Positions 12,981-33,968 of a stretch of DNA of 39,928 nucleotides are shown piece after piece. Position 1 is the stretch's first letter. The number at the start of each line of letters is the position of its first letter. The position numbers and the translations under genes are program-made. Below the pieces are notes generated by a model. That model saw nothing but the letters and a program-made list of their open reading frames with translations, was not told the origin of the DNA and did not search any database. Where the stretch lies: positions 1 to 39,928 of the IMG/VR virus record IMGVR_UViG_3300017971_000480; one strand, given 5' to 3'. The stretch comes from a virus.

Positions 12981-12986
12981 CGGCTG

Positions 12987-13146: not shown

Positions 13147-13203
13147 CAATTTAATTTCAGTCTCAATTATCCCCGTTCTCAAATCAGGGTTGACACAAGA
13201 GGA

Positions 13204-13476: not shown

Positions 13477-13507
13477 AGTGGTTCCTCTCTAGATTTTTGA
13501 TGTGGAT

Positions 13508-13536
13508 CTTATACCATGGGGCCCTGGATTGTTCAA
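13508..13536 (-). promoter_or_regulatory. Promoter of the HU gene
   Basis: On the minus strand, TTGAAC (13536-13531), a 17-bp spacer, and TATAAG (13513-13508), ending about 31 bases before the HU ATG. This fits a sigma70 promoter. Confidence 0.55.
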
Positions 13537-13649
13537 TGGGGAAGTGGGTGGGTGGGGGGGGAACGGAATCCTGAGGGGAGGTGTGAAGGCCAGATTCAGT
13601 TAGCATTTTGGGGGGACTAGCTTGTTGAGTTCGAGTAACCACAGACGCA

Positions 13650-14480: not shown

Positions 14481-14487
14481 TATCGTC

Positions 14488-14790
14488 TCAGCTTTTGGAA
14501 AACATCGATCGTAGCTTTCCGACTAAAGTTGGCCGTTCACCTCCAAAATCAACATCTAGAGCAACTTGACAAATCTCTGATTCAATAACACGTTTTACTT
14601 GAAACCGACTTCCAATAGATGATAGCTCTTGTCCTCTCCTCGCTAAATCAATCGCTACTGATTCCACTTCCTCGATTAGATTTCTCTGCTCTGCATTGGA
14701 AATTCCAAAACTCACGCAATCGTTCCTGAGCTTATTCAAAGCTTTAGACACATCTGTCACAGAGGTTATTTTTAATTTCAGCTTCCGCAA
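14488..14790 (-). CDS. Unknown small protein (cassette gene 2)
   Basis: 100 residues starting at TTG 14790 with AGGAG about 9 bases upstream. The protein is mostly helical with balanced charge (IEEVESVAIDLARRGQELSS), a central ALDVDFGGERPTLVGK strand/loop, and no membrane segment. No family recognised. It lies between the two tail-anchored proteins, 12 bases after the upstream gene's stop, so it is probably their soluble partner. The start codon is not certain, because ATT is also near the ribosome site. Confidence 0.45.
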   Translation of the reverse strand: MRKLKLKITSVTDVSKALNKLRNDCVSFGISNAEQRNLIEEVESVAIDLARRGQELSSIGSRFQVKRVIESEICQVALDVDFGGERPTLVGKLRSMFSKS

Positions 14791-14802
14791 TTTCGTGTGC
14801 TC

Positions 14803-15273
14803 CTACCTTACTAAGGCTATAATTGCAATTACAATTATCACAAAGGCTGCAAGACCAATCCAGACCCAAGTCAAGTCTCTCTCGCCAGTTTGGCTACGAC
14901 TAAGCTTGCCTTTTTTTGCAGCTTCACTATCCCCCATAATAATTTCTGTTCGACCAATAGTATCGTCCTGTGTACTTGTAATTGTGATTGAACCACCACT
15001 TTCAGATACCGCCCTCGTATGTTCTGCCATCGTTCCCAATTTCTCATCGAGTGCTCTCGTGTCTACACCAACTTCTGCGGCTTTGCGGCCGACTTCAATC
15101 ATGGCTTCAAGATATTTCGTTTTAAGCTCTTGCTTCTGCTCGTCAGTCAATCCTCTTAGATCCAAAACCTCGCCAGTCTGACCAACCTGTATTATGTCCT
15201 CACTTGGCAAGTGGGTCTTGTCTTCCTCTTTTTTGACCAGATCTTTTTGTCGTGGCTCTTTTTTTTCTGGCAT
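14803..15273 (-). CDS. Unknown tail-anchored protein (cassette gene 1)
   Basis: 156 residues from ATG 15273, chosen because AAAGGAG lies 6 bases upstream; a longer form starting at 15300 is less likely. The N-terminal half is Lys/Glu-rich and probably disordered (MPEKKEPRQKDLVKKEEDK). A helical segment (about 45-85) with LTDEQKQELKTKYLEAMIEV follows, then a Ser/Thr-rich beta part (SGGSITITSTQDDTIGR). The C-terminus is a single membrane helix (WVWIGLAAFVIIVIAIIALV). Topology and operon position suggest a membrane-tethered complex with the other two gene products; the function is unknown. Confidence 0.5.
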   Translation of the reverse strand: MPEKKEPRQKDLVKKEEDKTHLPSEDIIQVGQTGEVLDLRGLTDEQKQELKTKYLEAMIEVGRKAAEVGVDTRALDEKLGTMAEHTRAVSESGGSITITSTQDDTIGRTEIIMGDSEAAKKGKLSRSQTGERDLTWVWIGLAAFVIIVIAIIALVR

Positions 15274-15300
15274 GTATGACTCCTTTCCTTTTATTGACAT

Positions 15301-15768
15301 GCCCCCAGACCCTCCAGGGTTACACGCCTAAAATGGCCACTAGAAAACCAACCCGTCACAGGCGGCTGTAGTCTTTAACATCCGCACTAAGGATGGCGCT
15401 GAGCTGGCGTTTGAAGCCCTTCGTTCCGATGGGATCACCCCCCTTCAAGTTCATCGCGGATTGAGCAGGTGTGTGAAGTTCGGCAGTGGCCTGGACGAGG
15501 TGTTCTTAAGTTTAGGAGCAAGAGCATGCTTATCGGACTCTCAATCTCCCTTACCATTCTTTTACCACGAGAGGTTCGAAATGGCAACTTCCGTGGTGAC
15601 ACAGGTCATTTTACTCCGCTTCTTCCTCCAACGAGAGGCGTTGATTCAAGATGTTATTGAGGTTTCTCGGCGATCCCTGAGCCCGTCTAATTCTTCCAGA
15701 AATCAACACTTCTGGGGACTGATCCAGACTGCGTATCTCAGTAAGAATCGCTCGATCTGCTTTTCGCT
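15301..15768. other. Non-coding or degraded stretch
   Basis: About 470 bases before the riboswitch promoter. A plus-strand frame open from about 15349 contains VFNIRTKDGAELAFEALR and then diverges, so it may be gene debris. A minus-strand frame at 15611-15775 (MSKRKADRAILTEIRSLDQS...) looks protein-like but has only a weak, too-close ribosome site. I support neither as a gene. Confidence 0.25.
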
Positions 15769-15796
15769 TTGACATATCTCCACATGCTGCTATAAT
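15769..15796 (+). promoter_or_regulatory. Consensus sigma70 promoter for the riboswitch transcript
   Basis: TTGACA at 15769-15774, a 16-bp spacer, and TATAAT at 15791-15796: both boxes are perfect consensus. The RNA would start near 15803-15806, at the edge of the GEMM fold. Confidence 0.85.
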
Positions 15797-15805
15797 TGGA
15801 CATAT

Positions 15806-15925
15806 CGACAAAGCCAAACCATCTGTGAGGGTGGGACGGAAAGCCACGGGTCTAGCTGGGGGGTGGGACTCCAGAGCTTCCAAGATTTGGCATCAGAGGT
15901 TTCTAAGACAGCCGGGTTGCCGATG
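15806..15925 (+). ncRNA. GEMM-I riboswitch (c-di-GMP class)
   Basis: Hallmarks: AAACC at 15816-15820, a stem CCATCT-GTGA-GGGTGG with a GNRA tetraloop (15819-15834), GGGACGGAAAGCC at 15833-15845, ACGGGTCT, and the 3' core GACAGCCGGGTTGCCG at 15907-15922. Known elements of this class end the same way. Aligned to Vc2, the residue equal to G20 seems to be G, favouring c-di-GMP over cGAMP. The usual G21-C46 pair appears as C-G, a compensatory change. It precedes the small membrane protein gene at 16152. Confidence 0.8.
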
Positions 15926-15954
15926 TGGATGGGTGACTCGGCTTCATTATTTTC
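15910..15954 (+). terminator. Terminator-like hairpin in riboswitch expression platform
   Basis: AGCCGGGT (15910-15917) can pair with ACTCGGCT (15936-15943, one G-U), followed by TCATTATTTTC. The 5' arm is part of the ligand-binding core, so folding is mutually exclusive with the aptamer. The T tract is imperfect. Confidence 0.45.
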
Positions 15955-16151
15955 AGGAGAGACTTGGATAGCAGCTGTGGGCGCGATCGGTGCGTGGCGT
16001 GCACTCACACCAACTCTGAGGAACGGGGCCGAAGCGTGAATGGGTTGTGGAACCAACAAGACAGGTAGCGCTTATCGTCAATGGTCAGTCGTCCGTTCCC
16101 ATACTAGCGCAAATGCAGTGCGCACAAAACGATGATTTTGGAGGAGAACCT

Positions 16152-16388
16152 ATGGACACGTACGCGAAAATCGTTCTTTCTGTGATCGCCATCTGTTTGA
16201 TTGCAATAGTGATTAAGCTTTGGCAACCCAGACCTGCTCATAGTGGGTTTATGGATAAGGGCCCTACAATTGGAGATTTGATGGATCTCAGAAATCTAGA
16301 AGGGGAGAACCTGGAAAGAGAGAGGGAAAGGATCATTAGGAGCATTCCGGTCATGAAAGTCTATGGCACGGTCGATGTGTCCAGTTGA
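16152..16388 (+). CDS. Small single-span membrane protein under riboswitch control
   Basis: 78 residues from ATG 16152, chosen because GGAGGAGAACCT lies just upstream; an in-frame start at 16047 has no ribosome site. It has one N-terminal membrane helix (IVLSVIAICLIAIVIKLW, about 7-24), then a charged cytoplasmic or periplasmic tail with LMDLRNLEGENLERERERII. The family is unknown. Its leader holds the c-di-GMP-type riboswitch 230 bp upstream, so its level probably responds to that second messenger. Confidence 0.6.
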   Translation: MDTYAKIVLSVIAICLIAIVIKLWQPRPAHSGFMDKGPTIGDLMDLRNLEGENLERERERIIRSIPVMKVYGTVDVSS

Positions 16389-16453
16389 GAATACTGTTGC
16401 TGTGTGACGATCCGTAAGCTGCTATTGATGCTTAATCCCCCGTCGATCCTTGA

Positions 16454-16639
16454 AGTGTCCTAACCGATGGAAGTCGAAGGCGGCTGACAACTGACCACCG
16501 ATTCGGCTGGAACGTCGCCCGCCGCTGGGGCGGGATCGGGTCCACGAGGCCCAGGACCCTCTCCAGGGGCTACGAGACCTGGGAGGAGGCAAAGAGGGAA
16601 ATGATGGCGATTCTCAGGAAGAGAGAGGAGAGGGTATAG
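16454..16639 (+). pseudogene. WGR-domain remnant
   Basis: A plus-strand frame open from after a TGA (16451-16453) to TAG at 16637-16639, with no usable start codon or ribosome site. The part FGWNVARRWGGIGS..., then a Glu-rich helix (YETWEEAKREMMAILRKREE), fits the WGR fold (W-G-x-I-G followed by a helix with AxxxF/M). WGR domains occur in DNA-damage and toxin-related proteins. It is GC-richer than its surroundings and is probably the C-terminal debris of a larger gene. Confidence 0.45.
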
Positions 16640-16700
16640 GATCATTCAAGCTTAAAGGCGGAAGACTTAAGGCTTTCTGCCATTGGCAAAGGAGGCGGTT

Positions 16701-19631
16701 ATGTCCTTTGAACCTCTGAAGACTCAGATACAAAGAACCCTTAAGAATGCGGCCTCGTTCTACAAGGTAGATTTTCATGTTCATGCCAGAGACTCTCATG
16801 ATTTTGCGAAAAAAGATAAACCTGCAAGCCAAAAAGATCTTCAGGCGCAACCGATTGACTTCGTAGAAAGTGCTTTGAAGAACGAAATCCAAATGATTTC
16901 TGTAACAGACCATAACCGGTGCGGCTACGCCTTCCAGGTCATGAAGGCTGCTGAGGAATTCCGGAAAGCTGGTCAAGACAAGTACAGATTCAACAGCCTA
17001 ACCGTCTTGCCCGGGTGCGAAATCTCTCTCGACTATAACGGCCGAACGGTGCATATTCTTGGCATTTTTCCTGAAGACACGTCCGAACAGGAAATAGAAA
17101 ATACATTTGACGGGACAGGGATCGAACCTAACCCCGCAGACCGTACCAAAGATTCCAAGATAACTAAGATTAAGTTGGCAGCCCTTCTTGAGAAAATAAA
17201 GGCGAAGAAAGGAATCTGCGTCGCCTGTCACATAAACGAAGCCAACGGACTTAGAGAGGAAATCAAAAGGCTTAACGAAGGTCAAGTCCTCAAGCTAGAG
17301 AAAAAACAGAGAGAATTGCGAGACCAAGGAAAAAACAGGGAAGCTGATCATCTTGACCATGAAATAGATAAGGTAAAAGAAAAGGTCGAGACCGAGTTTA
17401 GGCAGAAGATATTCACTGAAAGCCCGTTTGACGCGGTTGAAATAAAGAAACCTGACGAGCGCTGTCACTTTGAAAACGTACAGATCAATGACAAAAGCTA
17501 CACGAAAGCTTGTCTGATAAATAGTGACGCCCATTACCTTGACGATATCGGAATAAAAGCGAACACGACCAGAATCAAGATGGAGGAGCCAGGGTTCAAC
17601 GGGTTGAAAAGAGCGCTACATGACCCTAAGACCCGGATCAGATTTGAGGAAGAGCTTCCACGATCCGACATCAAAAGAATAGTTGGCCTACGAGTCGAGA
17701 ACGGTTTCCTTGATGGACAGGTCATCGGGTTCACAGAGAATCTTAATTGCCTCATCGGAGGCCGTGGTACTGGAAAAACTTCACTCATAGAGATCATACG
17801 CTTCCTGATGGAAGAGAACATTCCCCCACTCCGCAAGGAGGATATTGACAGCCTTATGCGCAAGGTTCTTGAAGGGGCTGTTGCCACCATGATATTCCGG
17901 GACGAAACGAGAAATGAATATGTCTTGCAACGCTCACTAGGCCAGGAAAGGACCACCTGCTCCGACCTAGCCGGGGCGCCCCTCGAAAGCGTCTCTGTCA
18001 AAGACTCACAAATGATCAATGTGGATATCTACGGGTGGAGCGAGATAGAAACCATCGCCAGGGACCCGAAAGAACAGCTCGACCTTATCGACAAATTCAT
18101 CGAGGGAATAGAAGACTTAAAAGCAAAGGAAAAAGAAACAGTTTCTAAACTCAAGACGAATGCTCAGCAAATCCTCGACAAAATACGGAACAAAGAAGAG
18201 CAACTCCCCAGCATCTCCACCCTCCCCGAAAAAAAACTGGAACTCAAGAAGCTGAAAACTGAAAAACTGGACGAGGCAGAAGTCAAAACCCAACAGATAA
18301 CCAACGAATCCAGTTTCCTTACGTCCATAAGAATGGACCTAGAAAACATGAAGAATGGCATCGAAGAACTAGACCTCAAAAGCGAGGTCCAGACTTTCTT
18401 TACATCTCTCAAAGAGGACATCGAATCGAAAGACCTGCATGACAAACAATGGTTTAACAACCTCTACTCGAAAATTCAGCCTATAAAAGAGAAAATTATC
18501 ACCAGCCATGACAACCTCGTAGACTGGTTTGACGAAATACTACGCACCATAGAGAAAGAAGTTCCGGCGCTTGACACAGAGCACGAACGAATCTCCAAAC
18601 AATTTCAGCAACTAGTGGAGTCAGTGGATCAGACTGATGCCAGGACAGCTATACAAAGGAGAAGGGTCCTGTACAAAGAAGTTCAAGAAATGGAATTGAA
18701 AAAGAAACACATTGATAAATTGGAGGGAGAAACAGAGAATCTCTGGAAAACCAGGTATGATGATCTAATCCCCAAGCTTGAAAAAACAAGGAAAGACATA
18801 TACGAACTCAGAAAAGGGCAGATCTCAAACCTTCAAGAACAACTAGACAGGATAACAACGAACATCGAAATCAGCGTCGGCATCGTTGAAAGCGGAAACA
18901 AGACCGAATTCCGCCAAGACCTAGAAGAGTCCTACCTAAGAAAAATACCACTCAGATATATTGATAGACGGATAGCGAACACCATCTCATCCATGTTCAC
19001 GCCAATCAGCTTTGCCAAGCTGATCCGTGAAAAGGATCCTTCACCTCTGATCTATGAAAGCGAAGAAAACAGGAAGTTTTCGATAGGGACTGGGGACGCT
19101 CAGACGATAGTGGAACACTTCTCTCCTAAAGGCGAGGACAGGCTCAAAAAATCCAAAGCCCTGTTCGAAATAGAGGTAATAGACAATCCTGACCTGCCAC
19201 GAATATTTCTCAAGGACGGCGAGAAACCAAGGCTAATACAGGAACTTTCACCAGGCCAAAGATGTACCGCTCTTCTGCCAATAATATTATTAGAAAGCAA
19301 GAATCCTCTAATTATAGACCAGCCAGAAGACAACCTTGATAACCGCCTCGTCTTTGACCTTATAGTGAACACGATTCGGGATTTGAAGGAAAAGCGGCAG
19401 ATAATCGTTGCCACCCATAACCCTAACATCCCGGTTTCCGGGGATGCTGAGCAGATTCTCGTTTTCGACTCAGATGGAGACCATGGCTATGTTGATGTCC
19501 GAGGATGTATCGACAACGAGAAAATAATAAGAAAAGTGAAGGAAATAATGGAAGGAGGAGAAAAAGCCTTCCTGACCCGCGTCCAGAAATACGGTATCAC
19601 TCCTTTGGAGCTTGAACAGCCTTCCATGTAG
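16701..19631 (+). CDS. PHP-domain plus SMC-type ATPase (TrlF-like)
   Basis: 976 residues, start ATG 16701 chosen for AAAGGAGG just before it (TTG 16683 precedes the site). The N-terminal PHP phosphoesterase domain has its metal ligands: H26xH28 (FHVHARDSH), TDHN, GCEISLDY with HILG, HINEAN and SDAHY. An SMC/ABC-type ATPase follows: Walker A GGRGTGKTS at 353-361, then a long coiled-coil region (about 460-740), signature LSPGQ at 849-853, Walker B LIIDQPED at 870-877 and ATHNPNIP near 905. The layout matches TrlF-family AAA proteins, which often lie in defence islands; the mode of action is not settled. The nucleotidase or nuclease activity of PHP would be controlled by ATP and coiled-coil dimerisation. 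It stands alone in its direction, among remnants. Confidence 0.88.
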   Translation: MSFEPLKTQIQRTLKNAASFYKVDFHVHARDSHDFAKKDKPASQKDLQAQPIDFVESALKNEIQMISVTDHNRCGYAFQVMKAAEEFRKAGQDKYRFNSLTVLPGCEISLDYNGRTVHILGIFPEDTSEQEIENTFDGTGIEPNPADRTKDSKITKIKLAALLEKIKAKKGICVACHINEANGLREEIKRLNEGQVLKLEKKQRELRDQGKNREADHLDHEIDKVKEKVETEFRQKIFTESPFDAVEIKKPDERCHFENVQINDKSYTKACLINSDAHYLDDIGIKANTTRIKMEEPGFNGLKRALHDPKTRIRFEEELPRSDIKRIVGLRVENGFLDGQVIGFTENLNCLIGGRGTGKTSLIEIIRFLMEENIPPLRKEDIDSLMRKVLEGAVATMIFRDETRNEYVLQRSLGQERTTCSDLAGAPLESVSVKDSQMINVDIYGWSEIETIARDPKEQLDLIDKFIEGIEDLKAKEKETVSKLKTNAQQILDKIRNKEEQLPSISTLPEKKLELKKLKTEKLDEAEVKTQQITNESSFLTSIRMDLENMKNGIEELDLKSEVQTFFTSLKEDIESKDLHDKQWFNNLYSKIQPIKEKIITSHDNLVDWFDEILRTIEKEVPALDTEHERISKQFQQLVESVDQTDARTAIQRRRVLYKEVQEMELKKKHIDKLEGETENLWKTRYDDLIPKLEKTRKDIYELRKGQISNLQEQLDRITTNIEISVGIVESGNKTEFRQDLEESYLRKIPLRYIDRRIANTISSMFTPISFAKLIREKDPSPLIYESEENRKFSIGTGDAQTIVEHFSPKGEDRLKKSKALFEIEVIDNPDLPRIFLKDGEKPRLIQELSPGQRCTALLPIILLESKNPLIIDQPEDNLDNRLVFDLIVNTIRDLKEKRQIIVATHNPNIPVSGDAEQILVFDSDGDHGYVDVRGCIDNEKIIRKVKEIMEGGEKAFLTRVQKYGITPLELEQPSM

Positions 19632-19834
19632 AAGCAAAGATGATCTTTGAAGCTGTTTCCCGGCCGAAAAATCAAACCAGGAAATGGCCGATTCGATCGG
19701 TGTTTTCTCTTTCTTGAAATCTGCTCGGCTCACACGGCTGTTTCATTCTACCCACAGACCCGGATTCTCCGCTCTTTATTCCTTAAGCCGCTCCACGCCC
19801 TTGGTTTTCCGTAATCCGATTTGTCGTCAGTTCG
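19632..19834. other. Right edge of cargo, no supported gene
   Basis: 203 bases after the PHP-ATPase gene. Read on the minus strand from the promoter at 19835-19862, the sequence AAACC ... CCGGGTCTGTGGG ... CAGCCGTGTGAGCCGA resembles a decayed GEMM leader but lacks several key elements. A minus-strand frame (to 19470) overlaps the ATPase and is probably a shadow. Confidence 0.3.
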
Positions 19835-20106: not shown

Positions 20107-21738
20107 ATGATTATGAGGCAACCCGCCAACTTCCCACTTATTCAGAGGATCACAGCCCTATGGAGGCGTGGTACTCCCTCGTCTGTTGTTGTATCTGGTG
20201 AACCCTCCGATAGTACGACTGAAACCAGCGTCACAGGCGCGATTGTCGACGGGTACTTCAAGGAACTGAAGCTCAGCCGGTTGCGGAAAGATCGGTACCG
20301 GGACTTCGAGCAAATGGACGAGGAGTATCCGGAGATTGCGTCTGCGCTCGACATTTACGCTGATAATGCGACGAACCCGAAGGAGGAAACCGGCGACCCG
20401 TTTTGGGTTGAATCCGACAACGAAAAGGTGAAGAAGATCCTCGAAGAGTGTAGCGATAGGCTTGAACTCAAGGACGTCATCTGGGAGATCGCCCGGAATA
20501 TTTCGATGTACGGGGATGAGTTCGACGAGGTGGTCGTTGACAAGACTCCGGAAGTGGCGCGTTTGAAGTACCTCGCACCTGAAACGATGTTCAGGAACGA
20601 GGATGAGTACGGAAGGCTGAAGGAACAGGCCTATCATCAGCGAGACGTTACCACGCATGTGACAGTAGCTGAATTTGAGAAGTGGCAGATCGTTCAGTTT
20701 TCAAACGCTGGGCGGAGAAAGAAGTATGGACGAAGCGTTCTCGATCCAATCCGGAGACCGTACAAACAGCTGCAGATGATGGAAGACGGTATGGTGATTG
20801 GCCGTCTGACAAGGGCACATCTGAGGTACAAGTGGCTGATTGACGTCACGGGAATGGACCAAAAACAGGCCCAGGATCATCTGAAGAAAGTCAAGAAAGA
20901 TCTCCGGAAGAAGCGAACAATCAACCCGGTCACAGGGAAGCTAGATGTCAACACGAACCCACTCACGGCTGAAGAGGATTTCTTTGTTGGTGTGACGAAG
21001 GACAGTAAGGCTGATGTTGATGTTGTCCAAGGCCAGGGCAACCTGGGGGACATCGGAGACGTCGAGCATTTTCAGAACAAGCTGTTTTCCGGCCTGAAGG
21101 TGCCGAAGGCGTACCTTGGGCTGGAGCGCGATATCAATGCCAAGGCCACGTTGACCGAGCAGGATATCCAGTTTGCCAGGAGTGTCCGGAGGGTTCAAGC
21201 TGCAGTGAGAAAAGGACTGCGGCAGCTGTTCGACCTGGAGCTTATTCTGAAAGGAATCATCGTGGCGAACGTGGAGTATTCAATCAAGTTCAGCTCGATC
21301 AGTATGGTTGACGAGATGCGGAAATGGCAGGTGGAGAAGATCAAGGCCGAGGTCGCAAGGATCTACGGCGTTGAGATCGATGTTCTGTCTGATGAGTTTA
21401 TCTTGAGCACCTTCCTGGGGCTGAGTGACGAGCAGATCGCTCAGATTCTGAAGAACCGTGAAAAAGACTCTCCGGCTACCAAACCCACCGGCAAACCTGA
21501 CCTTAAACTTGTCCCCCCTGGCCCACAAACGAAAACCACGAAGGAGCCATCCAAATCAACCAAGACACAAGTTCCCGGCGAACCAGGTACGCCTGCGACT
21601 GCTGCGACTCCCCCGGCAGAAATCGCAGACCAGATCAAGGAAAACGGGCCATTCGCATCCGAAACGCTCATGTTTTTGGTTGAACAACTCAAGGACTTGG
21701 TCGACGCCGAGTTGGAAGCGGTTCGTGAGGAAGCGTGA
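20107..21738 (+). CDS. Portal protein (T4 gp20-like)
   Basis: 543 residues, forming the dodecameric ring at one capsid vertex through which DNA passes. The sequence has the T4-like portal pattern: RKDRYRDFEQMDEEYPEIASA, LDIYADNA, and further on DIGDVEHFQNKLF, VPKAYLGLERDI and ATLTEQDIQFARSVRR. The last about 80 residues (GKPDLKLVPPGPQTKTTKE) are Pro/Thr-rich and probably flexible. Start ATG 20107 (ATG 20113 alternative) follows a GG-containing site. The preceding non-coding region has a promoter and a hairpin. Its stop overlaps the MuF-like gene by GTGA. In most phages the portal follows terL directly; here 16 kb intervene. Confidence 0.88.
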   Translation: MIMRQPANFPLIQRITALWRRGTPSSVVVSGEPSDSTTETSVTGAIVDGYFKELKLSRLRKDRYRDFEQMDEEYPEIASALDIYADNATNPKEETGDPFWVESDNEKVKKILEECSDRLELKDVIWEIARNISMYGDEFDEVVVDKTPEVARLKYLAPETMFRNEDEYGRLKEQAYHQRDVTTHVTVAEFEKWQIVQFSNAGRRKKYGRSVLDPIRRPYKQLQMMEDGMVIGRLTRAHLRYKWLIDVTGMDQKQAQDHLKKVKKDLRKKRTINPVTGKLDVNTNPLTAEEDFFVGVTKDSKADVDVVQGQGNLGDIGDVEHFQNKLFSGLKVPKAYLGLERDINAKATLTEQDIQFARSVRRVQAAVRKGLRQLFDLELILKGIIVANVEYSIKFSSISMVDEMRKWQVEKIKAEVARIYGVEIDVLSDEFILSTFLGLSDEQIAQILKNREKDSPATKPTGKPDLKLVPPGPQTKTTKEPSKSTKTQVPGEPGTPATAATPPAEIADQIKENGPFASETLMFLVEQLKDLVDAELEAVREEA

Positions 21739-22806: not shown

Positions 22807-23625
22807 ATGAACGTCATCCAAAAGCCAGACGAGATGTTTATCGGTAGGGACGTGAGGATCGCGCATAACGTGAAGATCAATGTGACCGAGCGACTGGTGA
22901 TCGGTGACCGGAGTGCGCTCAACGAGCACGTTTCGATCGAAGGACGTGATGTTGTCATCGGCCGTGAGGCCTGGCTTGATGAGTATGCGTTCATCGGCGG
23001 GGGAAGCTGTTTTGAGAGACAGTCGACATTCCGAGCGGGTGATTTTCTCCACATGGGAAGGTTCTCGCATATCAACACCGCCCGTGAGGTCCGGGTAGGC
23101 CACGAGTGCGGTGTGGGGGTGGGCACGCGAATCTGTACGCACGGAGCGTACCCGCCACAGTGGGAAGGGTTCCCCGTTGCGTTCGAGCAGGTCACGATAG
23201 GTGACCGTGTGTGGTTGCCACATGCCTGGGTGAATCCAGGGGTTACAATCGGAAGCGATGTTGTCGTTTGCGCGTGGTCCTTGGTCAACCGCGACCTGCC
23301 GAGCGGGTGTCTCGCCTGCGGCATCCCGGTCAGAGTAATCAGGGAAAACGAGTATCCCAGGGCGTTGGTGGAGGAGGAAAAGCAGCGGTTGGTGCACGGC
23401 ATCGCCCAAGAAATCGATATGTTGCCGTGTGAAACGGATCCAGGCATTGGATATACGGATGGGCAATTGGTGTACGGAGAGACCAGGTTTGACCTCGACC
23501 GCAGGAGGATCGAGGGCCCGGGGGACGAGAGAACCGAGCGAATTCGGAACCAACTGCGAAGACACGGTGTACGCTTCAGGTACGGCATCAAGAGTGGCCG
23601 ATATGTCGCGTGGGGAATGCTATGA
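22807..23625 (+). CDS. Hexapeptide-repeat acyltransferase-like protein
   Basis: 272 residues. Residues about 10-180 show the left-handed beta-helix pattern (GRDVRIAHNVKINVTERLVI, IGREAWLDEYAFIGG), ending in IGDRVWLPHAWVNPGVTIG, SDVVVCAWSLVNRDLPSGCL and GIPVRVIR, which is typical of CysE/LacA/NodL-type O- or N-acetyltransferases. HIN and THG segments offer a catalytic His. The C-terminal 70 residues are not part of the helix. It probably acetylates a sugar. It lies 4 bases after the MuF gene and overlaps the GT2 gene, so it is part of a glycan cassette inside the head operon. Confidence 0.78.
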   Translation: MNVIQKPDEMFIGRDVRIAHNVKINVTERLVIGDRSALNEHVSIEGRDVVIGREAWLDEYAFIGGGSCFERQSTFRAGDFLHMGRFSHINTAREVRVGHECGVGVGTRICTHGAYPPQWEGFPVAFEQVTIGDRVWLPHAWVNPGVTIGSDVVVCAWSLVNRDLPSGCLACGIPVRVIRENEYPRALVEEEKQRLVHGIAQEIDMLPCETDPGIGYTDGQLVYGETRFDLDRRRIEGPGDERTERIRNQLRRHGVRFRYGIKSGRYVAWGML

Positions 23626-24428
23626 GAATGAAGCTGTCTTTCAACGTGATCTGTCAGGATGAAGAGGAGTTGATCCACCAGTGCCTGAGCCATCTGATCA
23701 AGATCGGCGAGGCTGTGGATGGTGGGTATGAGATCGTCATCGTGGACGGTGGCAGCCGGGACCGCACCCTCGAGATCATAAAGGAAATGGTTAACGGTGC
23801 GGATCCAAGTCCGATCAGACTTTTGCAAAAGATGTGGCCAGGAGGGTTTGGAGAGCAGAGACAGTTCAACATGGAGATGAGTCGCGGTGAGTGGATCATG
23901 ATGATGGACGTGGATGACATCCTCAGTGATGGGATCTACGCGAGGATCAACGATTTGCTTGCTGATCGGAGCCGTCATGTCTACTGTTTTCCGAAGATCC
24001 ATCTCTTGCACGACATCCACCACATGCTTGCCGATGCGCCGAAGGATCCGAAGAGGGTTATTTGGAGGAATCTGCCGGATTTTCGTTGGTCGGGTAGTCT
24101 TGAGTCGTTCACCTACCAGGGGGTGCCGGTCAACCAGCACCCGTGTCATTTCAATTTCCCGTGGGTGGCGTACGTCCCGGATATTCGGCTTGTACACTTT
24201 GAAGGTTTGAAGAGCGATCAGAGTCTGCTTTCTAAGTTCAGGGAACGGAGCAAGTACGAAAGGTGCAAGATATACAGATGGAGTGATGAGCAGATCCAGG
24301 AGCTGGTCGCAAAAAGAAAAATGGCTCGGGTATGTCCGGTCGAGGAGCGTCATCCCGGGTTGACATTCTACCACGAGATCGACAAAGGGTTGTGGTATGG
24401 GGCGGGCAAGGATTTTCGTCGACTATGA
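23622..24428 (+). CDS. Family 2 glycosyltransferase
   Basis: 268 residues from ATG 23622 (ATGA overlap; in-frame ATG 23610 and 23628 are alternatives). The GT-A fold is clear: MKLSFNVICQDEEELIHQCL, EIVIVDGGSRDRTLEII, and MMMDVDDIL supplying the DXD metal/UDP-sugar motif. A C-terminal part (GVPVNQHPCHFNFPWV, GLWYGAGKDF) lies beyond the catalytic domain. It transfers a sugar from a nucleotide donor; donor and acceptor are unknown. Phages use such enzymes to modify virion proteins, DNA or the host surface. It overlaps the next small gene by about 30 bases. Confidence 0.85.
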   Translation: MRMKLSFNVICQDEEELIHQCLSHLIKIGEAVDGGYEIVIVDGGSRDRTLEIIKEMVNGADPSPIRLLQKMWPGGFGEQRQFNMEMSRGEWIMMMDVDDILSDGIYARINDLLADRSRHVYCFPKIHLLHDIHHMLADAPKDPKRVIWRNLPDFRWSGSLESFTYQGVPVNQHPCHFNFPWVAYVPDIRLVHFEGLKSDQSLLSKFRERSKYERCKIYRWSDEQIQELVAKRKMARVCPVEERHPGLTFYHEIDKGLWYGAGKDFRRL

Positions 24429-24669
24429 AGTGGCTGGGTTGAGCGGAGGCAGAAAATGCAGCGATGTTCTGCTGCGCAAGCTGCTCCATATGGATGATCG
24501 ATATAGCATTGTTTCGATCGAAGCGAATGACAGGTTGCAACATCTTGAGGTCGTCCTCGAGGGGAGCCACATACCTGAACCTGTTCCAGGGGGTAAGGCA
24601 CTTTTGGACGGAAATTGGTTTATCAGGGAAGTGCCGAACCAGATTCCGAATGGATGGCTTGAGGTCTGA
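24397..24669 (+). CDS. Small protein in glycan cassette
   Basis: 90 residues, beginning inside the GT2 3' end. It has an alternating hydrophobic body (IFVDYEVAGLSGGRKCSDVL, IVSIEANDRLQHLEVVLEG) and ends NQIPNGWLEV. I recognise no domain. It has no clear ribosome site, so coupling to GT2 translation would be needed; its coding status is moderately sure because it fits tightly between GT2 and the methyltransferase. Confidence 0.45.
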   Translation: MGRARIFVDYEVAGLSGGRKCSDVLLRKLLHMDDRYSIVSIEANDRLQHLEVVLEGSHIPEPVPGGKALLDGNWFIREVPNQIPNGWLEV

Positions 24670-24670
24670 T

Positions 24671-25204
24671 ATGTGTACGAGTGCACACCAGTTCAATGGC
24701 GACTTTGTGAGGTTTGTCCAGGAGAAGAAGCCCAAGATCATCCTCGATCTGGGCACGGGGATAGGGAAGTACGGAAAATTGCTGAAGGATTCGGGGATCG
24801 GGCCTTATCGTCTGACCGGCGTTGAAATCAATGAGACGTTCGAGGAGAGGCTGCAAGGTCTTTACGACCGGATTGTTTGGAGTGATCTCGTCAAGTACGC
24901 ACTTGACTATTCGCTCACGCCACACAACATGGAGAAGACCTGGGATCTGGTGATAATGGGAGATGTCCTCGAGCACCTTCGCAAGTCCGAGGGGATAGAT
25001 ATCATCGAGTTCTATGTGTACCGAAGCACGTACCTGTATATCCAGTTCCCGTTGTTTATGATCCAGTTCTCAGGTGGGGTCCATGCGAGAGAGAACCATG
25101 TTTCGATATGGGCGGACAGGGATTTTGATCGCTTTGTCCACGACTATCAGGAGATTAGCGGTATCGCGAGAGTCATTATTGAGGGCAGGAAGGTGAAACC
25201 ATGA
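24671..25204 (+). CDS. SAM-dependent methyltransferase
   Basis: 177 residues from ATG 24671, with GAGG just upstream. Motif I is IILDLGTGIGKYGKLL (about 23-38), followed by YRLTGVEINETFEERL (acidic ribose contact) and DLVIMGDVLEHL, a typical Class I methyltransferase. The end (SIWADRDFDRFV) matches the substrate-side region of small methyltransferases acting on sugars or lipids. It lies one base after the previous gene and overlaps the next by ATGA. It may methylate a glycan made by the neighbouring enzymes. Confidence 0.8.
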   Translation: MCTSAHQFNGDFVRFVQEKKPKIILDLGTGIGKYGKLLKDSGIGPYRLTGVEINETFEERLQGLYDRIVWSDLVKYALDYSLTPHNMEKTWDLVIMGDVLEHLRKSEGIDIIEFYVYRSTYLYIQFPLFMIQFSGGVHARENHVSIWADRDFDRFVHDYQEISGIARVIIEGRKVKP

Positions 25205-27635: not shown

Positions 27636-28970
27636 TTGAACCCTTTGATCGAAGTGACGTATCCGGATTTTCAGGTTGTCGAGGAAGCGACGAAGGACAA
27701 CGGGGGGCGGATGCGGGTGAAATGCCTGATGCAAGTCGCAGACGAAATAAACGGCAATGGTCGATTCTATCCTGAGGCGATTCTTGACCGCGAAGTGCTG
27801 AGGATGCAGGAGGAAATCAAACGGCAGAGCGCATATGGGGAGGCTGACCACCCAGGCGATGGAAAATCGAGAATCTCGAACACCGCATCACGGCTTCTGA
27901 ACCTCGAAAAGGCGGTGACGGATAAGGGACGCAAGGAGTATTGGGGCGAGGTCATGATCCTCAACACATCGAAGGGTAAGGACGTCCAGGAGATCTTGAA
28001 TTCTGGCGGTCGCCTTGGACATTCGAGCCGCGGGTTTGGAACAACCAAGGCGTCTACCCTTGACGGAAAGAAAGGTGAGTGTGTCCAGGACGACTATCGT
28101 CTCAAGGCTTTTGACTTTGTCATCGGACAGAGCGTGAAAGACGCTGACGTGAGGCTCGGAGAAGGATTGTACGAGCAAACGCTCGATGTTGTGAGCATTT
28201 TCGAATCTGAGGAACAGGGTGTGGAAGGAGATGCCGCTGTACGCCCGAAAACTGAAATCGAGAAAGGAGGTCACGAGACCATGGAACTGACACTCGAGGC
28301 GCTGAAAAAAGACCACCCGAAGTTGGTGGAGGCCATCAAAGCTGAGTTGGAAGCACAGCTGAAGGAGAGCATTCAGAAGGAGTTGGATGCTTCGTTCGAT
28401 CAGCGACTGGCCGAGGAAATCGAGAAGCGGAAGGACGAGATCAGGGACGACGTTGTGGAGGCAATCAAATCGTCTGAGGAATTCCAGAGCTATAAGGGTG
28501 TGGTCGACGAAATTACCGCCCTGCTCAGGAAATACGACCTAGTCGAATCCGGGTCCGGCGAGGACGGGACGGACAAGGAGAAGGACGAGCAGTTGGCTAC
28601 GCTGCGGCAGGAGTTGAAGACGGAAAAAGAGGAGAGGGTCAAGCTGTCCGAGCAACTGGGAGGCATGAAGGTCAAGGATCACATCGCCGAGGTCGTCAAG
28701 GGCAAAGCCCATGCTTCTCTGCTGGCCGAAAGGCTCGCTGACTGCAAAACCGAAGAGGAAGTCAATGAGCGGCTGGAGAAAGAGGAGGACTATATCAAGA
28801 GGATCACCGAGGCCTCCGGCACGCCCGCGGGCAAGGGTAAGGTGAAGGATGAGGACAACCCAAGTCAGCAGGTAATAGAGGGCGAGGAGGATGAGGAAAA
28901 GAAGGCACAGATGGAACGCGACAGAAGGCTGGCCGGCTTGCCGCCCCTTGAAGAAAAGAAAGAGAGCTAG
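27636..28970 (+). CDS. Prohead protease-scaffold fusion (T4 gp21-like, S80)
   Basis: 444 residues, start TTG 27636 after AAAGGAGGTGAT. Residues about 1-205 are the S80 protease: NGNGRFYPEAIL, YGEADHPGDGKSR with His72, and LGHSSRGFG with Ser130/131 as nucleophile, spaced 58 residues apart, similar to T4 gp21. Residues about 216-430 form a charged coiled coil, typical of scaffolding: KAELEAQLKESIQKELDASF and others. It matures the capsid by cutting the scaffold and capsid N-termini. A strong internal site with ATG 28281 allows the scaffold part alone to be made. It lies upstream of the major capsid. Confidence 0.85.
   Translation: MNPLIEVTYPDFQVVEEATKDNGGRMRVKCLMQVADEINGNGRFYPEAILDREVLRMQEEIKRQSAYGEADHPGDGKSRISNTASRLLNLEKAVTDKGRKEYWGEVMILNTSKGKDVQEILNSGGRLGHSSRGFGTTKASTLDGKKGECVQDDYRLKAFDFVIGQSVKDADVRLGEGLYEQTLDVVSIFESEEQGVEGDAAVRPKTEIEKGGHETMELTLEALKKDHPKLVEAIKAELEAQLKESIQKELDASFDQRLAEEIEKRKDEIRDDVVEAIKSSEEFQSYKGVVDEITALLRKYDLVESGSGEDGTDKEKDEQLATLRQELKTEKEERVKLSEQLGGMKVKDHIAEVVKGKAHASLLAERLADCKTEEEVNERLEKEEDYIKRITEASGTPAGKGKVKDEDNPSQQVIEGEEDEEKKAQMERDRRLAGLPPLEEKKES
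28281..28970 (+). CDS. Nested scaffolding protein start within the protease gene
   Basis: AAAGGAGGT (28263-28271) lies 9 bases before ATG 28281, in frame (residue 216 of the fusion). The product begins MELTLEALKKDHPKLVEAIK and is 229 residues, mainly coiled coil with a charged tail. This mirrors the nested C/Nu3 genes of lambda, where the protease gene also encodes the scaffold. The scaffold should be the more abundant product, fitting the stronger site. Confidence 0.65.
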   Translation: MELTLEALKKDHPKLVEAIKAELEAQLKESIQKELDASFDQRLAEEIEKRKDEIRDDVVEAIKSSEEFQSYKGVVDEITALLRKYDLVESGSGEDGTDKEKDEQLATLRQELKTEKEERVKLSEQLGGMKVKDHIAEVVKGKAHASLLAERLADCKTEEEVNERLEKEEDYIKRITEASGTPAGKGKVKDEDNPSQQVIEGEEDEEKKAQMERDRRLAGLPPLEEKKES

Positions 28971-29029: not shown

Positions 29030-30109
29030 ATGCTGGTATCACAAATGATTAAGGAAGACGCGCAGAGGAGAGAGCGTTGGGCCTATCTCACCGAAGGGCT
29101 TGTGCAGGACCATCGGTTGATCATGGAGCGGCTTCTTGACCAGACAGCGAAGTGGATCGCGGAGGAGTCCACGACCGCGAACGTCGCGGCGTTCAGCACC
29201 TGGGCGCTTCCGGTTGTCCGGAGGGTTTTTGCCAAACTGATCGCCCAGGATCTGTTTTCCCTGCAGCCGATGAGCCAGCCGACCGGCAAGGCGTTTTACC
29301 TGGATTTCAAGTATGGGTCCGGGGCCGATGCTGGCAACCGGATTGACCAGCTGGCGAATTTCAACAGCGCGTACGCCGATTCCAGCGAAGGCGGGACGGT
29401 GAAGGAGATCAACTTCGACCTCTCGAGTGTTACCGTTGAAGCTCAGGAAAAGAAGTTGAAGTACATCACCACGGTCGAGGCGCTCCAGGATCTCAAAGCC
29501 TACCATCCCACGTTGGATGGGGAGGACGAGTTGATGAAGGTTCTCTCCGCCGAGCTCGTTCGGGAGATCAACTCGATTCTGCTGGCTGACGCTCTTGCCG
29601 GCGCCACCGCGGGAAACGTGAACTGGAGCAAGACCGTACCGTCCACTCAGCCTTGGAGCCTTCTCAACCCGAAGGAGTACAAGGCGACGATCTACGACGC
29701 GATCACCGACGCCAATAACCTCATTTTCAAAAAGCGTTTCCGGAACGCGAACTGGATTCTGGCCGATCCGGATACGTGCGTGCGGCTGGAAAAGCTCGAG
29801 GACTTCAAGGGCGTGGACACCGCTGATGACGGCATCCTGAATGTCAGCATCGAGTACGTGGGAACCCTGAAGGGGAAGTACAGGGTGTGGAAGGATCCCT
29901 GGTTCACGGCGAACAAGATGCTGCTCGGTTACAAGGGGACCAGTTGGCTTGACACCGGGTATGTCTATCTCCCGTATCATCCGCTGTACGTGACCGACAG
30001 GATCGTTGATCCCAACGATTTCAAGCCACGGCGGGGGATCATGAGTCGCTTTGCGAAGAAGTGTGTCGTGGGCGACATGTTCGCGACGGTGACGCTTACA
30101 AGCAGCTGA
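29030..30109 (+). CDS. Major capsid protein (T4 gp23-like)
   Basis: 359 residues, strong site AAAGGAGG. The HK97 fold of T4-like capsids is recognised from ALPVVRRVFAKLIAQDLFS, LQPMSQPTGKAFYLDFKYG, DLSSVTVEAQEKKLKYI, FRNANWILADPDTCVRLE and GYVYLPYHPLYVTD. It forms the capsid lattice. At 359 residues it is shorter than T4 gp23 (521) but similar to other gp23-like capsids of this size. The N-terminal about 50 residues may be removed by the neighbouring protease. It is followed directly by a glycosyltransferase gene, an unusual arrangement. Confidence 0.9.
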   Translation: MLVSQMIKEDAQRRERWAYLTEGLVQDHRLIMERLLDQTAKWIAEESTTANVAAFSTWALPVVRRVFAKLIAQDLFSLQPMSQPTGKAFYLDFKYGSGADAGNRIDQLANFNSAYADSSEGGTVKEINFDLSSVTVEAQEKKLKYITTVEALQDLKAYHPTLDGEDELMKVLSAELVREINSILLADALAGATAGNVNWSKTVPSTQPWSLLNPKEYKATIYDAITDANNLIFKKRFRNANWILADPDTCVRLEKLEDFKGVDTADDGILNVSIEYVGTLKGKYRVWKDPWFTANKMLLGYKGTSWLDTGYVYLPYHPLYVTDRIVDPNDFKPRRGIMSRFAKKCVVGDMFATVTLTSS

Positions 30110-30159: not shown

Positions 30160-31188
30160 ATGCTGACCCGTAATGTTTCCGGGTCTCCGCAGGTCTACTA
30201 CACGAGCCTGATGGAACCTGTGGAGATCCCGCCCAAGTGTTGCATCGAAACCGCACTCCTGCAAGAAGGAATGGCTGGCAGCCCTCACTTGCAGGAGTGC
30301 GAATCCCTTGAGTCGTTTTTAAACAAGCACCCCACTGCACGGGTTTTGTTCGTGCGGGGAGGCGGCTTGGGGGACGTCCTCTGTCTCACGCCTGTTTTGG
30401 TTGTTCTCCGCGAACGTTACCCTTCGGCAAGGTTCGCTGTTGGCACGTCCTGCGCCTCCATCTTTAGAGATTGGCCGGAAATCGAAACCGTGGATCCACG
30501 AAGGGTCCATGGTGGGTACTACGATATCGGCTTCATGTTGGACGGCATACTTGAGTTGGATTATGTTCCCGGCTCTTACTACCGCGGGAAGCCAAGGCTT
30601 CAGATCTATCTGGATGTCCTTGGGATGAAGAAAATCAGGGATCCGGTGTTTCGCCTGACTGTTGCTCCCGAAGACCGGATGTTTGCCAGGGATAAGCTCG
30701 GATGTACGACGGGGAACGGTCGGAAAACTATCGGCGTTCAGGTGGCAGGGAACAGTCCGATGCGGCAATTGCCGTGGGATACGGTTAAGAACGTCATCGA
30801 GGGAATTGCGAGAGAGGGGCATACGGGGGTTGTCCTGCACAATGAGAAGGTTCCCCTCGAGGGGAAGGGAATTATCAATCTGTCGGGAGAGACCACGTTG
30901 CACCAGCTAGCTGCCGTGATTCATGCCCTTGATTTGGTGGTGACCATGGACAGCGGGGCAATGTGGGTGGCGCACACAACGCAGACTCCCCTGGTGGCCG
31001 TTTTGGGGCCGACAAGACCGGAGGATAAGACCTGCTATCACTTGAACTGCAGGAACTTGGAAACGAATCGATGGATTGGGTGTGACAGTTGTTTTGAATC
31101 GACGGAAGCTTGTGGGGGTTCAGTTGCCTGCCTAAGGGATGCTGATGCCGGCAGGATTCTGGCAGAGGTTCTAGAGGCCGCAGAATGA
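30160..31188 (+). CDS. GT9-like glycosyltransferase (heptosyltransferase type)
   Basis: 342 residues from ATG 30160; TTG 30145 is part of the ribosome site GGAGGGAG. The GT-B fold of family 9 is seen in ARVLFVRGGGLGDVLCLTPV, IGVQVAGNSPMRQLPW, INLSGETTLHQLAAVIHALD and MDSGAMWVAHTTQTPLVAVL (the ADP-sugar-binding Asp-Ser-Gly). A C-terminal Cys-rich part (IGCDSCFESTEACGG) is an addition. Known members transfer ADP-heptose to lipid A core; here the acceptor could be a phage protein or host glycan. It overlaps the next gene by ATGA. Placing it after the capsid gene suggests late expression. Confidence 0.82.
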   Translation: MLTRNVSGSPQVYYTSLMEPVEIPPKCCIETALLQEGMAGSPHLQECESLESFLNKHPTARVLFVRGGGLGDVLCLTPVLVVLRERYPSARFAVGTSCASIFRDWPEIETVDPRRVHGGYYDIGFMLDGILELDYVPGSYYRGKPRLQIYLDVLGMKKIRDPVFRLTVAPEDRMFARDKLGCTTGNGRKTIGVQVAGNSPMRQLPWDTVKNVIEGIAREGHTGVVLHNEKVPLEGKGIINLSGETTLHQLAAVIHALDLVVTMDSGAMWVAHTTQTPLVAVLGPTRPEDKTCYHLNCRNLETNRWIGCDSCFESTEACGGSVACLRDADAGRILAEVLEAAE

Positions 31189-32945
31189 AAACAGTGAAGG
31201 TGCCACAGATTCATTATGGTTTTGACATGGAGCCCGTGGTCAGCCATGTGGAGATAAGCAGCCCAGAGTCCGATCGGCGAACGGGGTCGATGCTGAAGAG
31301 GCAGACCGTACTTGTGGGCAAGAAGGTTTCCATCGTCATCGTCTGTCTGAATCAACTTGCGTACACGAGACAGTGTGTTCGGAGCATCGTGGACAACACG
31401 CAAGGCGTTGACTACGAGCTGATCCTGGTTGACAACGCCTCGACCGATGGGACCGCGGAGTACATGGATCATCTGGAGCGAAGTTACTCCGGCGTTCAGG
31501 TCGTTCATAACGATCGGAATCTCGGTTTTGGCGCGGGGAACAACAGAGGGTTCAGGGTTGTGACCGGTGATTATGTCTGCTGCCTGAATAACGATACGAT
31601 CGTGAAACCCGGCTGGTTGACCTATCTGCTGTCTTGCCTTGTCGATCATCCTAGAACAGGGATCGTGGGGCCGGTAGGCTCGAGGTTGGGGGTTGTAGGT
31701 GGGAAGACATTTGTTCATATCGGAGGAACAGATAGCGATGGGGCGCGTGACGTCCATTACATCGAAGGCTGGTGTTTTCTGATCTCGAAGAAGGTCTTGG
31801 ACGAAGTTGGGTGGTTTGACGAGTCCTTTGGGTTGGCCTTCAGTGAGGATGCGGACCTGTCCTTCCGGTTGAGGGAGAAGGGGTACGGTCTGAGGGTGAG
31901 CAATAACGGCGGCGTCGTTCATTTTGGCAGCGTCACGGTAAAGAGCCAGCGGGAGTTCAACGTAGCCCGTTTGACCGGCGAGAACAACCGGAAACTGTAT
32001 TCACGATGGGGTCCGGGAATCTTGGGCTTTGATTTTTCGCGGATTTTGCTCGTTCGCCGAGGGGCACTGGGCGACGTTTTGATGTGTACACCGATTGTTC
32101 GGGAGCTAAGGAAAAAGTTCCCCGGCAGCTGCATTGGGCTCGCCACTGATTGCCCCCAGGTATTGGAGGGAAACCCTCACGTTGATGTAGTGTTGAAGGA
32201 ATTCGATCCGAGGGAATGGTCAAAAGTGTATCGGTTGGACTATGAGAAGGATCCACTCCGGAATGCCGTGGAGGTTATGGCAGAACAAGCAGGGGCGAAA
32301 TGCGAGAACAAGCGACCGGAATTGGTGATCGACCGTGGTGATCGAAGGGATTCAAGGAGATTGATGGTTAACAGGAAATGGGTCGCGTTCCATACGGGAA
32401 GGAGTTGGCCCAATCGAGAATGGCCCATGGATCGGTGGATTGAGCTCGCCGAAAGACTGCTGCGGTTGGGTTTTTCCATTCTCGAGTTGGGGGACCGGAA
32501 AACCGCCCTGACAGGAATCGGGTTGGATCTGCGTGGGTTGGGTGTTCGTCGGGTTGGGGCGATCATGGAGGGATGCGAGCTGTTTGTCGGAATCGACTCG
32601 CTTTGCGCTCACATTGCAAAGGCCGTAAACGTGCCGGCAGTTGTTATCTACGGATGCGTTGACCCCTCGACCAGGAAAAACGGTGGGATCGAGTATCCGG
32701 TATGGCTGGCGAATCTGAAGTGTCGTGGGTGCCGCAACAAGACCAGGTCGCTGTATGTGGAGTGTCCGAAAAAGCGAATCAGCTGTGTTGAAGATATCAC
32801 GATTGACATGGTGTATCGGACGGTTCTTACGGCGCTCAGAAATGGCCGTGTGGGAAGCAGCAGCAGAGAAGAAGGGGTTGGAGATGGGAGAGGCAAGCAA
32901 GATAAGGGAAATGGTTCTCAAATGGTGCACGGGCAAGGGGCTTGA
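31185..32945 (+). CDS. GT2-GT9 two-domain glycosyltransferase fusion
   Basis: 586 residues. Residues about 45-280 form a GT2 (GT-A) domain: VSIVIVCLNQLAYTRQCVRS, LILVDNASTDGTAEYM, VCCLNNDTIV and SEDADLSFRL. Residues about 285-560 form a second domain of the GT9 (GT-B) type: ILLVRRGALGDVLMCTPIVR, WVAFHTGRSWPNREWPM, LDLRGLGV and FVGIDSLCAHIAKAVNVPAV. The C-terminus has Cys residues (CRGCRN, CPKKRISC). The fusion could add two sugars in sequence. GT9 domains of this gene and of 30160-31188 share a similar C-terminal Cys pattern, so they may be paralogues. It overlaps the next methyltransferase by about 60 bases. Confidence 0.82.
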   Translation: MKTVKVPQIHYGFDMEPVVSHVEISSPESDRRTGSMLKRQTVLVGKKVSIVIVCLNQLAYTRQCVRSIVDNTQGVDYELILVDNASTDGTAEYMDHLERSYSGVQVVHNDRNLGFGAGNNRGFRVVTGDYVCCLNNDTIVKPGWLTYLLSCLVDHPRTGIVGPVGSRLGVVGGKTFVHIGGTDSDGARDVHYIEGWCFLISKKVLDEVGWFDESFGLAFSEDADLSFRLREKGYGLRVSNNGGVVHFGSVTVKSQREFNVARLTGENNRKLYSRWGPGILGFDFSRILLVRRGALGDVLMCTPIVRELRKKFPGSCIGLATDCPQVLEGNPHVDVVLKEFDPREWSKVYRLDYEKDPLRNAVEVMAEQAGAKCENKRPELVIDRGDRRDSRRLMVNRKWVAFHTGRSWPNREWPMDRWIELAERLLRLGFSILELGDRKTALTGIGLDLRGLGVRRVGAIMEGCELFVGIDSLCAHIAKAVNVPAVVIYGCVDPSTRKNGGIEYPVWLANLKCRGCRNKTRSLYVECPKKRISCVEDITIDMVYRTVLTALRNGRVGSSSREEGVGDGRGKQDKGNGSQMVHGQGA

Positions 32946-33375
32946 CCTTGGGTGTGGTAGCGAAAAGATCCACGAGAATGCGATCGGTGTTGATGTGCGA
33001 CCCCTTCCCTGCGTTGATGTCATCTGGGACATCGGACAGCCTTTGAGTTTTGCCCAAGAGGGAATGTACGACTATGTCTTCTCCAGCCATGCTCTGGAGC
33101 ATTTGAAGGAAGACCCGATAACGGTTGTCAAACATTGGTTTCGGGTTATCAGGACCGGAGGGTATCTGGTTCTGTATCTGCCTGACATGGACTACTACAC
33201 GCAGCCGAATCCTGAGCATTTTCAATCCTTTAGATTTGAGCCATTCCGCAAAGCCATTTCTGAGGTTCCTGGATTTGAGCTTGTTTTCTGCACGCATGAT
33301 GTGAGCGAACCAGGGCGTTACAGTTTCTTGATCGTGGGCCAAAAAAATGATGATGAAAAGGAGGCCAGGAGATGA
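32884..33375 (+). CDS. SAM-dependent methyltransferase, glycan type
   Basis: 163 residues from ATG 32884 (GAGATGGGAG context; an in-frame start at 32725 lies inside the previous gene). Motif I is KGLDLGCGSEKIHENAIG, then VDVIWDIGQPLSFA, YDYVFSSHALEHL and TGGYLVLYLPDMDYYT. This is the common methyltransferase type in LPS or polysaccharide clusters (Methyltransf_11). It probably methylates a sugar built by the two glycosyltransferases. ATGA overlap with the next gene. Confidence 0.8.
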   Translation: MGEASKIREMVLKWCTGKGLDLGCGSEKIHENAIGVDVRPLPCVDVIWDIGQPLSFAQEGMYDYVFSSHALEHLKEDPITVVKHWFRVIRTGGYLVLYLPDMDYYTQPNPEHFQSFRFEPFRKAISEVPGFELVFCTHDVSEPGRYSFLIVGQKNDDEKEARR

Positions 33376-33968
33376 AGAAGGTAATCAGAACGTTCACGAA
33401 CGACACGGGGATAGACCAGCATGTCTATGATCGGTCGGAAGAGCTTGTCCACGTTCCCGTTGGTCACATTTTCGAAGAGTTCGAGGATGGCTCTTATGTG
33501 ACCCGACCGATAGGGGCGATACGTCGTTTTTTCGATGGTGGAGGTGGTGGGGTGGAGGCGGAGATCCAACAGGCCGAGGCCGGAACTGATGAGGCGACAG
33601 CGCCGGCAAAAAAGGAACCGGACCTCGAGACCACGTTTCGGACTGCAGCAACGTTCGGGCTTGCCGACGAGGAAGAGGGCGGTGACAAGGAAGAGGAGAA
33701 GGAGGCAGTGGAAGAGGAGAAAACGTACAAGCGATCTGTCCGGGAGTTGATGCCCCTCATAAAAGCTGCTGAAACTCTTGATGACCTTGCTGATTCGAAA
33801 GAACCAAAGGAAGACAGGAAAACGAGTATCAGAGCACTCCTGGCCAAGAGGAAGGAATTGCTGATGGCGGGGGGCGGGGAGAAGGCGCCCGATGGAGAAA
33901 ACAGAGACTCAGCTAAAGGAATTGATCCGGAGGAAGGCGGGGAACGCATCGGTCGCGGATCTGACTGA
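33372..33968 (+). CDS. Phage head-region protein, acidic, unknown
   Basis: 198 residues. The N-terminal about 50 residues may form a small beta domain (VHVPVGHIFEEFEDGSYVTR); the rest is Gly/Glu/Lys rich (DEEEGGDKEEEKEAVEEEK) and predicted disordered, with one helix (TYKRSVRELMPLIKAAETLDD). It overlaps the next gene by 77 bases. Its position after the capsid and before connectors suggests a structural or chaperone role; no motif supports more. Confidence 0.5.
   Translation: MKKVIRTFTNDTGIDQHVYDRSEELVHVPVGHIFEEFEDGSYVTRPIGAIRRFFDGGGGGVEAEIQQAEAGTDEATAPAKKEPDLETTFRTAATFGLADEEEGGDKEEEKEAVEEEKTYKRSVRELMPLIKAAETLDDLADSKEPKEDRKTSIRALLAKRKELLMAGGGEKAPDGENRDSAKGIDPEEGGERIGRGSD

Follow-up and report, generated by a model that had tools for sequence, protein, structure and literature searches.

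A GT9 glycosyltransferase and a GT2-GT9 fusion encoded beside the capsid gene of an uncultivated T4-type phage are candidate virion-glycosylating enzymes

The window, meaning the whole stretch of DNA analysed here, is an entire IMG/VR virus record, linear and 39,928 bases long, and represents a partial contig. It derives from a T4-type (gp23) phage, with the gp23 major capsid protein (MCP), the S77 protease and a T4-type portal present in order. The right half begins with the portal gene (20107-21738, +; phrog_213, 210 bits), followed by a minor head protein, a first glycan cassette, a small beta protein and the S77 prohead protease with its scaffold (27636-28970, +; PF03420, phrog_207). The gp23-type MCP gene that anchors the locus (29030-30109, +; PF07068 190 bits, phrog_138 188 bits) is followed by a second glycan cassette and then by neck and tail genes, the first of which (33372-33968, +) is assigned by gene order as a small head/neck-region protein. 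At 359 aa the MCP is short and is devoid of the large insertion found in its nearest relatives (approximately 520-545 aa). No DNA similarity of the window to phage records was detected and a single-protein scan with the MCP gave no match, while a profile search recovered relatives only at 40% identity or below; thus, these searches revealed no close relative of the phage.

P1, the first gene of the second cassette, starts 51 bp downstream of the capsid stop codon at 30109, and 4-bp ATGA overlaps occur at the junctions between P1 and P2 and between the methyltransferase and the next gene. This spacing is typical of a single transcription unit, here the head operon. The cassette has the same G+C content (0.53-0.56) as the structural genes around it and so, by composition, is no recent foreign insert.

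A separate 12-kb block of lower G+C (0.44-0.50; approximately 7500-19700) lies between a terminase-like gene (2080-4011) and the portal gene at 20107. It carries host-like genes, mostly on the minus strand, and is either an accessory island or the product of two joined sequences. Its genes include a 982-aa TrlF-family AAA ATPase with a PHP domain (16683-19631, +; NF045780 478 bits, cut-off 350), which is related to the anti-phage protein Ppl, a protein that joins a response-regulator receiver domain to a Schlafen AlbA_2 domain (9019-9891, -) and a thermonuclease-like protein with an SNase domain (10404-11126, -), for which the top NCBIfam hit, to the family of the calcium-activated nuclease EcnA, falls below the cut-off.

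The two proteins described in an earlier note on this DNA, a stand-alone GT9 and a 586-residue GT2-GT9 protein, were both confirmed. P1 (30160-31188, +; 342 aa) begins with an ATG at 30160 preceded by GGAGGGA and scores 49 bits with PF01075, for which the cut-off is 22. The catalytic Asp72 lies within LGDVL (residues 70-74), and four cysteines cluster at residues 308-324. P2 (31185-32945, +; 586 aa) matches PF00535 (100 bits, residues 49-207) and PF01075 (52 bits, residues 357-521, same cut-off of 22). Its GT2 domain occupies residues 46-270, with DXD-type motifs NND at 135 and ED at 221, and its GT9 domain residues 283-545 approximately, with Asp297 in LGDVL at 295-299 and the four cysteines at 513-534. 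The catalytic aspartate of the LGDV loop was invariant across 22 aligned GT9 sequences. A motif common to both N-termini, PQ[VI]xYxxxMEPV, is found at near-equal distance from each start (30187-30222 and 31203-31238); its shuffle p value, calculated post hoc, is 0.0026.

The third enzyme of the cassette is a SAM-dependent methyltransferase (32842-33375, +; PF08241 31 bits, PF13489). Its frame spans 32725-33375 with start candidates at 32842, 32884 and 32911, and translation probably begins at 32842 or later. On the other side of the capsid gene, the first cassette encodes a left-handed beta-helix (hexapeptide) acyltransferase (22807-23625, +; PF00132), which scores 62 bits with the WcaF-type subfamily, below the cut-off, together with a GT2 glycosyltransferase (23610-24428, +; PF00535 60 bits) and a methyltransferase (24464-25204, +; PF13489 27.7 bits). 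The first cassette is likewise confirmed.

The possibility that the GT2-GT9 join reflects a frameshift or an assembly artefact was weighed against several observations. P2 is a single open frame uninterrupted by a stop codon, and third-position G+C (GC3) remains high in this frame from 31185 to approximately 32800, across the GT2/GT9 junction at around residue 275, indicating that there is no frameshift at this point. Beyond approximately 32800 the GC3 signal moves to the methyltransferase frame, and the last 35 or so codons of P2, which overlap the methyltransferase gene, look non-coding in the frame of P2; this is the one feature that favours an artefact. We looked for the fusion in plasmids, phage isolates and 119 Acidobacteriota, and for GT9 in 40 genomes from the phylum of a Calditrichota MAG and 120 from that of Noviherbaspirillum. 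GT2 and GT9 were found joined independently in an 870-aa MTase-GT2-TPR-GT9 protein (L116), encoded on a 370,804-bp phage contig with its own gp23 capsid gene, and in a 1533-aa protein of a Calditrichota genome (L123), where the two domains share one frame. L123 was the only such case among the cellular loci opened. Fusions of GT9 to GT4 were also found (L096 and L118), and no second instance of the exact two-domain architecture of P2 was encountered among the loci examined. The open frame, the unbroken codon bias and the recurrence of GT2+GT9 fusions elsewhere make an artefact very improbable and, for practical purposes, rule it out at the junction. The outcome that would have told against the earlier note, a lack of such fusions in other genomes, did not occur.

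The two halves of P2 probably have different histories, since the GT2 half is nearest to Acidobacteriota GT2 domains (38-39% identity) and the GT9 half to GT9s of other phages (30-31% identity), with no equally strong match to the latter in the 279 cellular genomes searched. The L116 protein resembles P2 in combining GT2 and GT9 in one chain of a gp23-type phage, and its GT9 domain is 30% identical to that of P2. It differs in carrying a methyltransferase in the same chain and a TPR region between GT2 and GT9, and in its distance from the MCP gene, at least about 20 kb, with fibre-like genes nearby. Methyltransferase and GT9 also share one chain in L125 and in Microcystis phage Mel-JY01 (L094). 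Furthermore, among the ORFs of the loci compared with it, homologues of the methyltransferase of the window were found only beside or near GT9 genes (L102, L099 and L122). Fusion and neighbourhood together suggest that the methyltransferase, GT2 and GT9 activities belong to one pathway.

The earlier note had read a Cys-rich C-terminal pattern in both GT9s as a sign of duplication. The pattern itself is present, but it is family-wide: C-x2-C-x(n)-C-x(n)-C occurs near the C-terminus in 24 of 27 viral GT9 ORFs that had been retrieved by a motif without cysteine, and when 22 GT9s from viruses and cells were aligned, C-x2-C, which forms the first pair, was present in all 22 and the second pair was nearly invariant. 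Thus, the pattern is ancestral and silent on duplication, and the argument from the motif was rejected. Alignment of the two GT9 domains gave 25% identity over 238 residues. By score, P2 GT9 is closer to the GT9s of other phages (103, 101 and 84 bits) than to P1 (62 bits), and eleven other retrieved ORFs outscore P1 as matches to P2. The divergence excludes a recent duplication. In trees with long branches P1 and P2-GT9 are not sisters; an AU test did not reject a clade uniting them (p = 0.28), so an old duplication is possible.

The AF2 model of P1 has a pLDDT of 81; an N-terminal extension of about 46 residues (1-46), which is assigned to no domain, is not confidently folded. It is predicted to adopt a GT-B fold whose nearest structures are all GT9 enzymes: the Veillonella heptosyltransferase 3tov (VIA Z 24.2), WaaF (1psw; 22.6), TibC (20.9) and WaaC (20.2), the next unrelated family scoring 13.9. 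P1 and P2 share with 3tov, WaaF and WaaC the catalytic aspartate of LGDV and a PF01075 match above cut-off, while identity in structural alignments of P1 to these enzymes is only about 20-23%. At the K-x-W-P site of WaaC and WaaF, both P1 and P2 have Arg in place of Lys; in the 22-sequence alignment Trp269 of P1 replaces the His of the family, and Leu473 of P2 stands at a position that is mostly Gly. Neither protein reached the cut-off of the NCBIfam equivalogs for LPS heptosyltransferases I, II and III (best score 53 bits against 185), and no gene for ADP-heptose synthesis was found among the ORFs scanned. Since neither protein falls within an equivalog, the sequence does not predict a sugar donor for P1 or P2.

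A second comparison is with TibC, a GT9 that glycosylates protein and in which four cysteines at the corresponding place bind one iron and are required for assembly and activity (PMC4358343). P1 and P2 resemble TibC and the other BAHT O-heptosyltransferases in having four C-terminal cysteines at the position of the iron finger, where a metal site is putative here, although the cysteine spacing is shorter than in TibC. The N-terminal beta-barrel of these enzymes was not seen in P1 or P2, and P1 scores 19.3 bits with TIGR04414 against a cut-off of 200. Conversely, the long protein of the gp23-type phage Mel-JY01 holds a true member of this TibC/Aah family (TIGR04414, 319 bits), joined to a methyltransferase-like part.

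LPS heptosyltransferases are the best-known members of the GT9 family, and the GT2 domains of the window match GtrB-like PHROGs weakly. These observations would suit enzymes that alter the host surface polysaccharide during infection, bringing about serotype conversion or superinfection exclusion. We consider this improbable. None of the enzymes has a transmembrane segment, no membrane-bound GtrA/GtrB was found, and no flippase, polymerase or polyprenyl-phosphate transferase is present among the ORFs scanned; these absences argue against an envelope polysaccharide and for a soluble acceptor in the virion that is made together with the enzymes. The failure to reach any LPS-heptosyltransferase equivalog cut-off and the position of the genes within the late head operon point the same way. 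That position also weighs against glycosylation of hypermodified bases in phage DNA, a common role of phage glycosyltransferases in the account of Pyle et al. 2024 given in PMC12619734. No base-hypermodification genes were found in the contig, which is partial, so that replication and possible DNA-modification genes are unseen; we judge this role more improbable still.

GT9 enzymes had been described as rare in phages. For isolates this holds at the sensitivity used: tblastn with P1 gave no match in 50,697 phage records, and PF01075 was matched in one of 50 phage records, mostly gp23 relatives. It is less true of uncultivated phages, from which one narrow motif scan yielded 28 GT9 loci. In a further phage lineage (L188, L190, L196, L201, L203, L206, L212, L213 and L114) the GT9 lies just upstream of an actin-like (ParM-type) gene and in most members is preceded by a conserved structural-looking protein.

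Examination of the retrieved loci revealed that the GT9 gene lies within three genes after the MCP gene in five of 14 GT9 lineages, namely the window, L095, L103, the L107 clade (L097/L098, L105-L113, L115, L117, L119 and L120) and L118. The order is portal, protease, MCP, small gene, GT9 and adaptor in L095 (MCP phrog_1623); minor head, protease, decoration, MCP, small gene, adaptor and GT9 in L103 (MCP phrog_4523/133); protease, MCP and GT9 in the L107 clade (MCP phrog_1623 in L107, L117 and L120); and MCP, GT9-GT4, sialyltransferase-like gene and adaptor in L118 (MCP phrog_29), where the GT9-GT4 fusion (L118:5395-9251) is directly 3' of the MCP gene. The MCPs of the five lineages fall into four PHROG families (phrog_138, 1623, 4523/133 and 29). 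Under random placement the binomial p value ranges from 1e-3 to 2e-5 as the assumed gene number rises from 50 to 120, for a lineage count made post hoc, after the pattern had been noticed, and from a non-exhaustive motif scan. Two further viral scans added only GT9 lineages away from capsid genes, and approximately two thirds of viral GT9 lineages do not adjoin an MCP. No report of a capsid-adjacent GT9 was found in the literature searched, the scope of which included few subscription papers.

The N-terminal domain of the L103 GT9 is a homologue of gp45 from Vibrio phage 1F273_PE002 (38% identity; tblastn E 3e-3, pairwise E 9e-10, phrog_482 E 3.7e-4). In that phage gp45 is free-standing and is encoded two genes after the MCP, ahead of the next virion structural genes. 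At the N-terminus of L107-type GT9s a small beta domain is predicted fairly confidently (pLDDT 75-87), and profile comparison gave a suggestive match between it and the head-region domain of L103 and gp45 (P = 0.0012). No convincing free-standing homologue of the L107-type N-terminus was identified in isolates, and a sequence profile of this region did not find L103, L095 or P1. Homology of the N-termini of P1 and P2 to the head-region domain was likewise not found.

Genes beside an MCP can occupy insertion hot spots, and elsewhere in the window unrelated genes form a 12-kb block that separates terminase from portal. Both would fit a cassette that is mere cargo, a set of morons that landed at a permissive site downstream of the capsid gene and play no part in the particle. 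The recurrence of one enzyme family beside MCPs of different families makes this unlikely, as do the overlapping starts and stops, a composition equal to that of the neighbouring structural genes and the head-type domain fused to the L103 GT9.

Since at least four further, unrelated groups of phages have the same kind of enzyme at this spot by the capsid gene, the particle is probably decorated with sugar, and the suggestion that the enzymes act on it gains support. Our preferred reading, to which we assign a probability of roughly 0.55, is that P1, P2 and the methyltransferase belong to the late gene products, are soluble, and add sugars, and probably methyl groups, to a head protein of the virion. 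Made late together with the capsid, they would build a short glycan on this protein: GT2 would act once and GT9 once or twice, drawing on nucleotide-sugars of the host, and the methyltransferase would cap or modify the product. The acyltransferase, GT2 and methyltransferase of the first cassette may contribute further steps. Expression from the head operon would place the enzymes where head proteins are produced, and in the related loci the GT9 may be docked on its target by a head-protein-like domain at its N-terminus. From genes and their neighbourhoods we infer the acceptor, the donors, the order in which the steps occur, the docking, and that methylation affects the glycan and not protein. 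More tentatively, and with some doubt, capsid-adjacent GT9s may constitute an unrecognised and widespread virion-glycosylation system of uncultivated tailed phages, repeatedly acquired next to capsid genes that are unrelated to one another, with the enzyme delivered to the assembling head by a fused head-protein domain.

A precedent is provided by mycobacteriophages, in which, as PMC12619734 relates of Freeman et al. 2023, glycans are found on capsid and tail-tube subunits and phage glycosyltransferases have been proposed to act. That system concerns other phages and hosts.

The presence of capsid-adjacent GT9s in several unrelated phage groups, which was not among the claims of the earlier note, is in our opinion the most interesting outcome of this work. 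Glycosylation of the virion changes how phages are recognised by the immune system and may affect adsorption, and to our knowledge phage-coded virion glycosylation has been described in very few systems. The MCP and the small decoration and neck proteins suggest themselves as candidate acceptors. A GT9 gene recurring beside the capsid gene would name the enzyme family and provide a simple genomic signature by which more such systems may be found.
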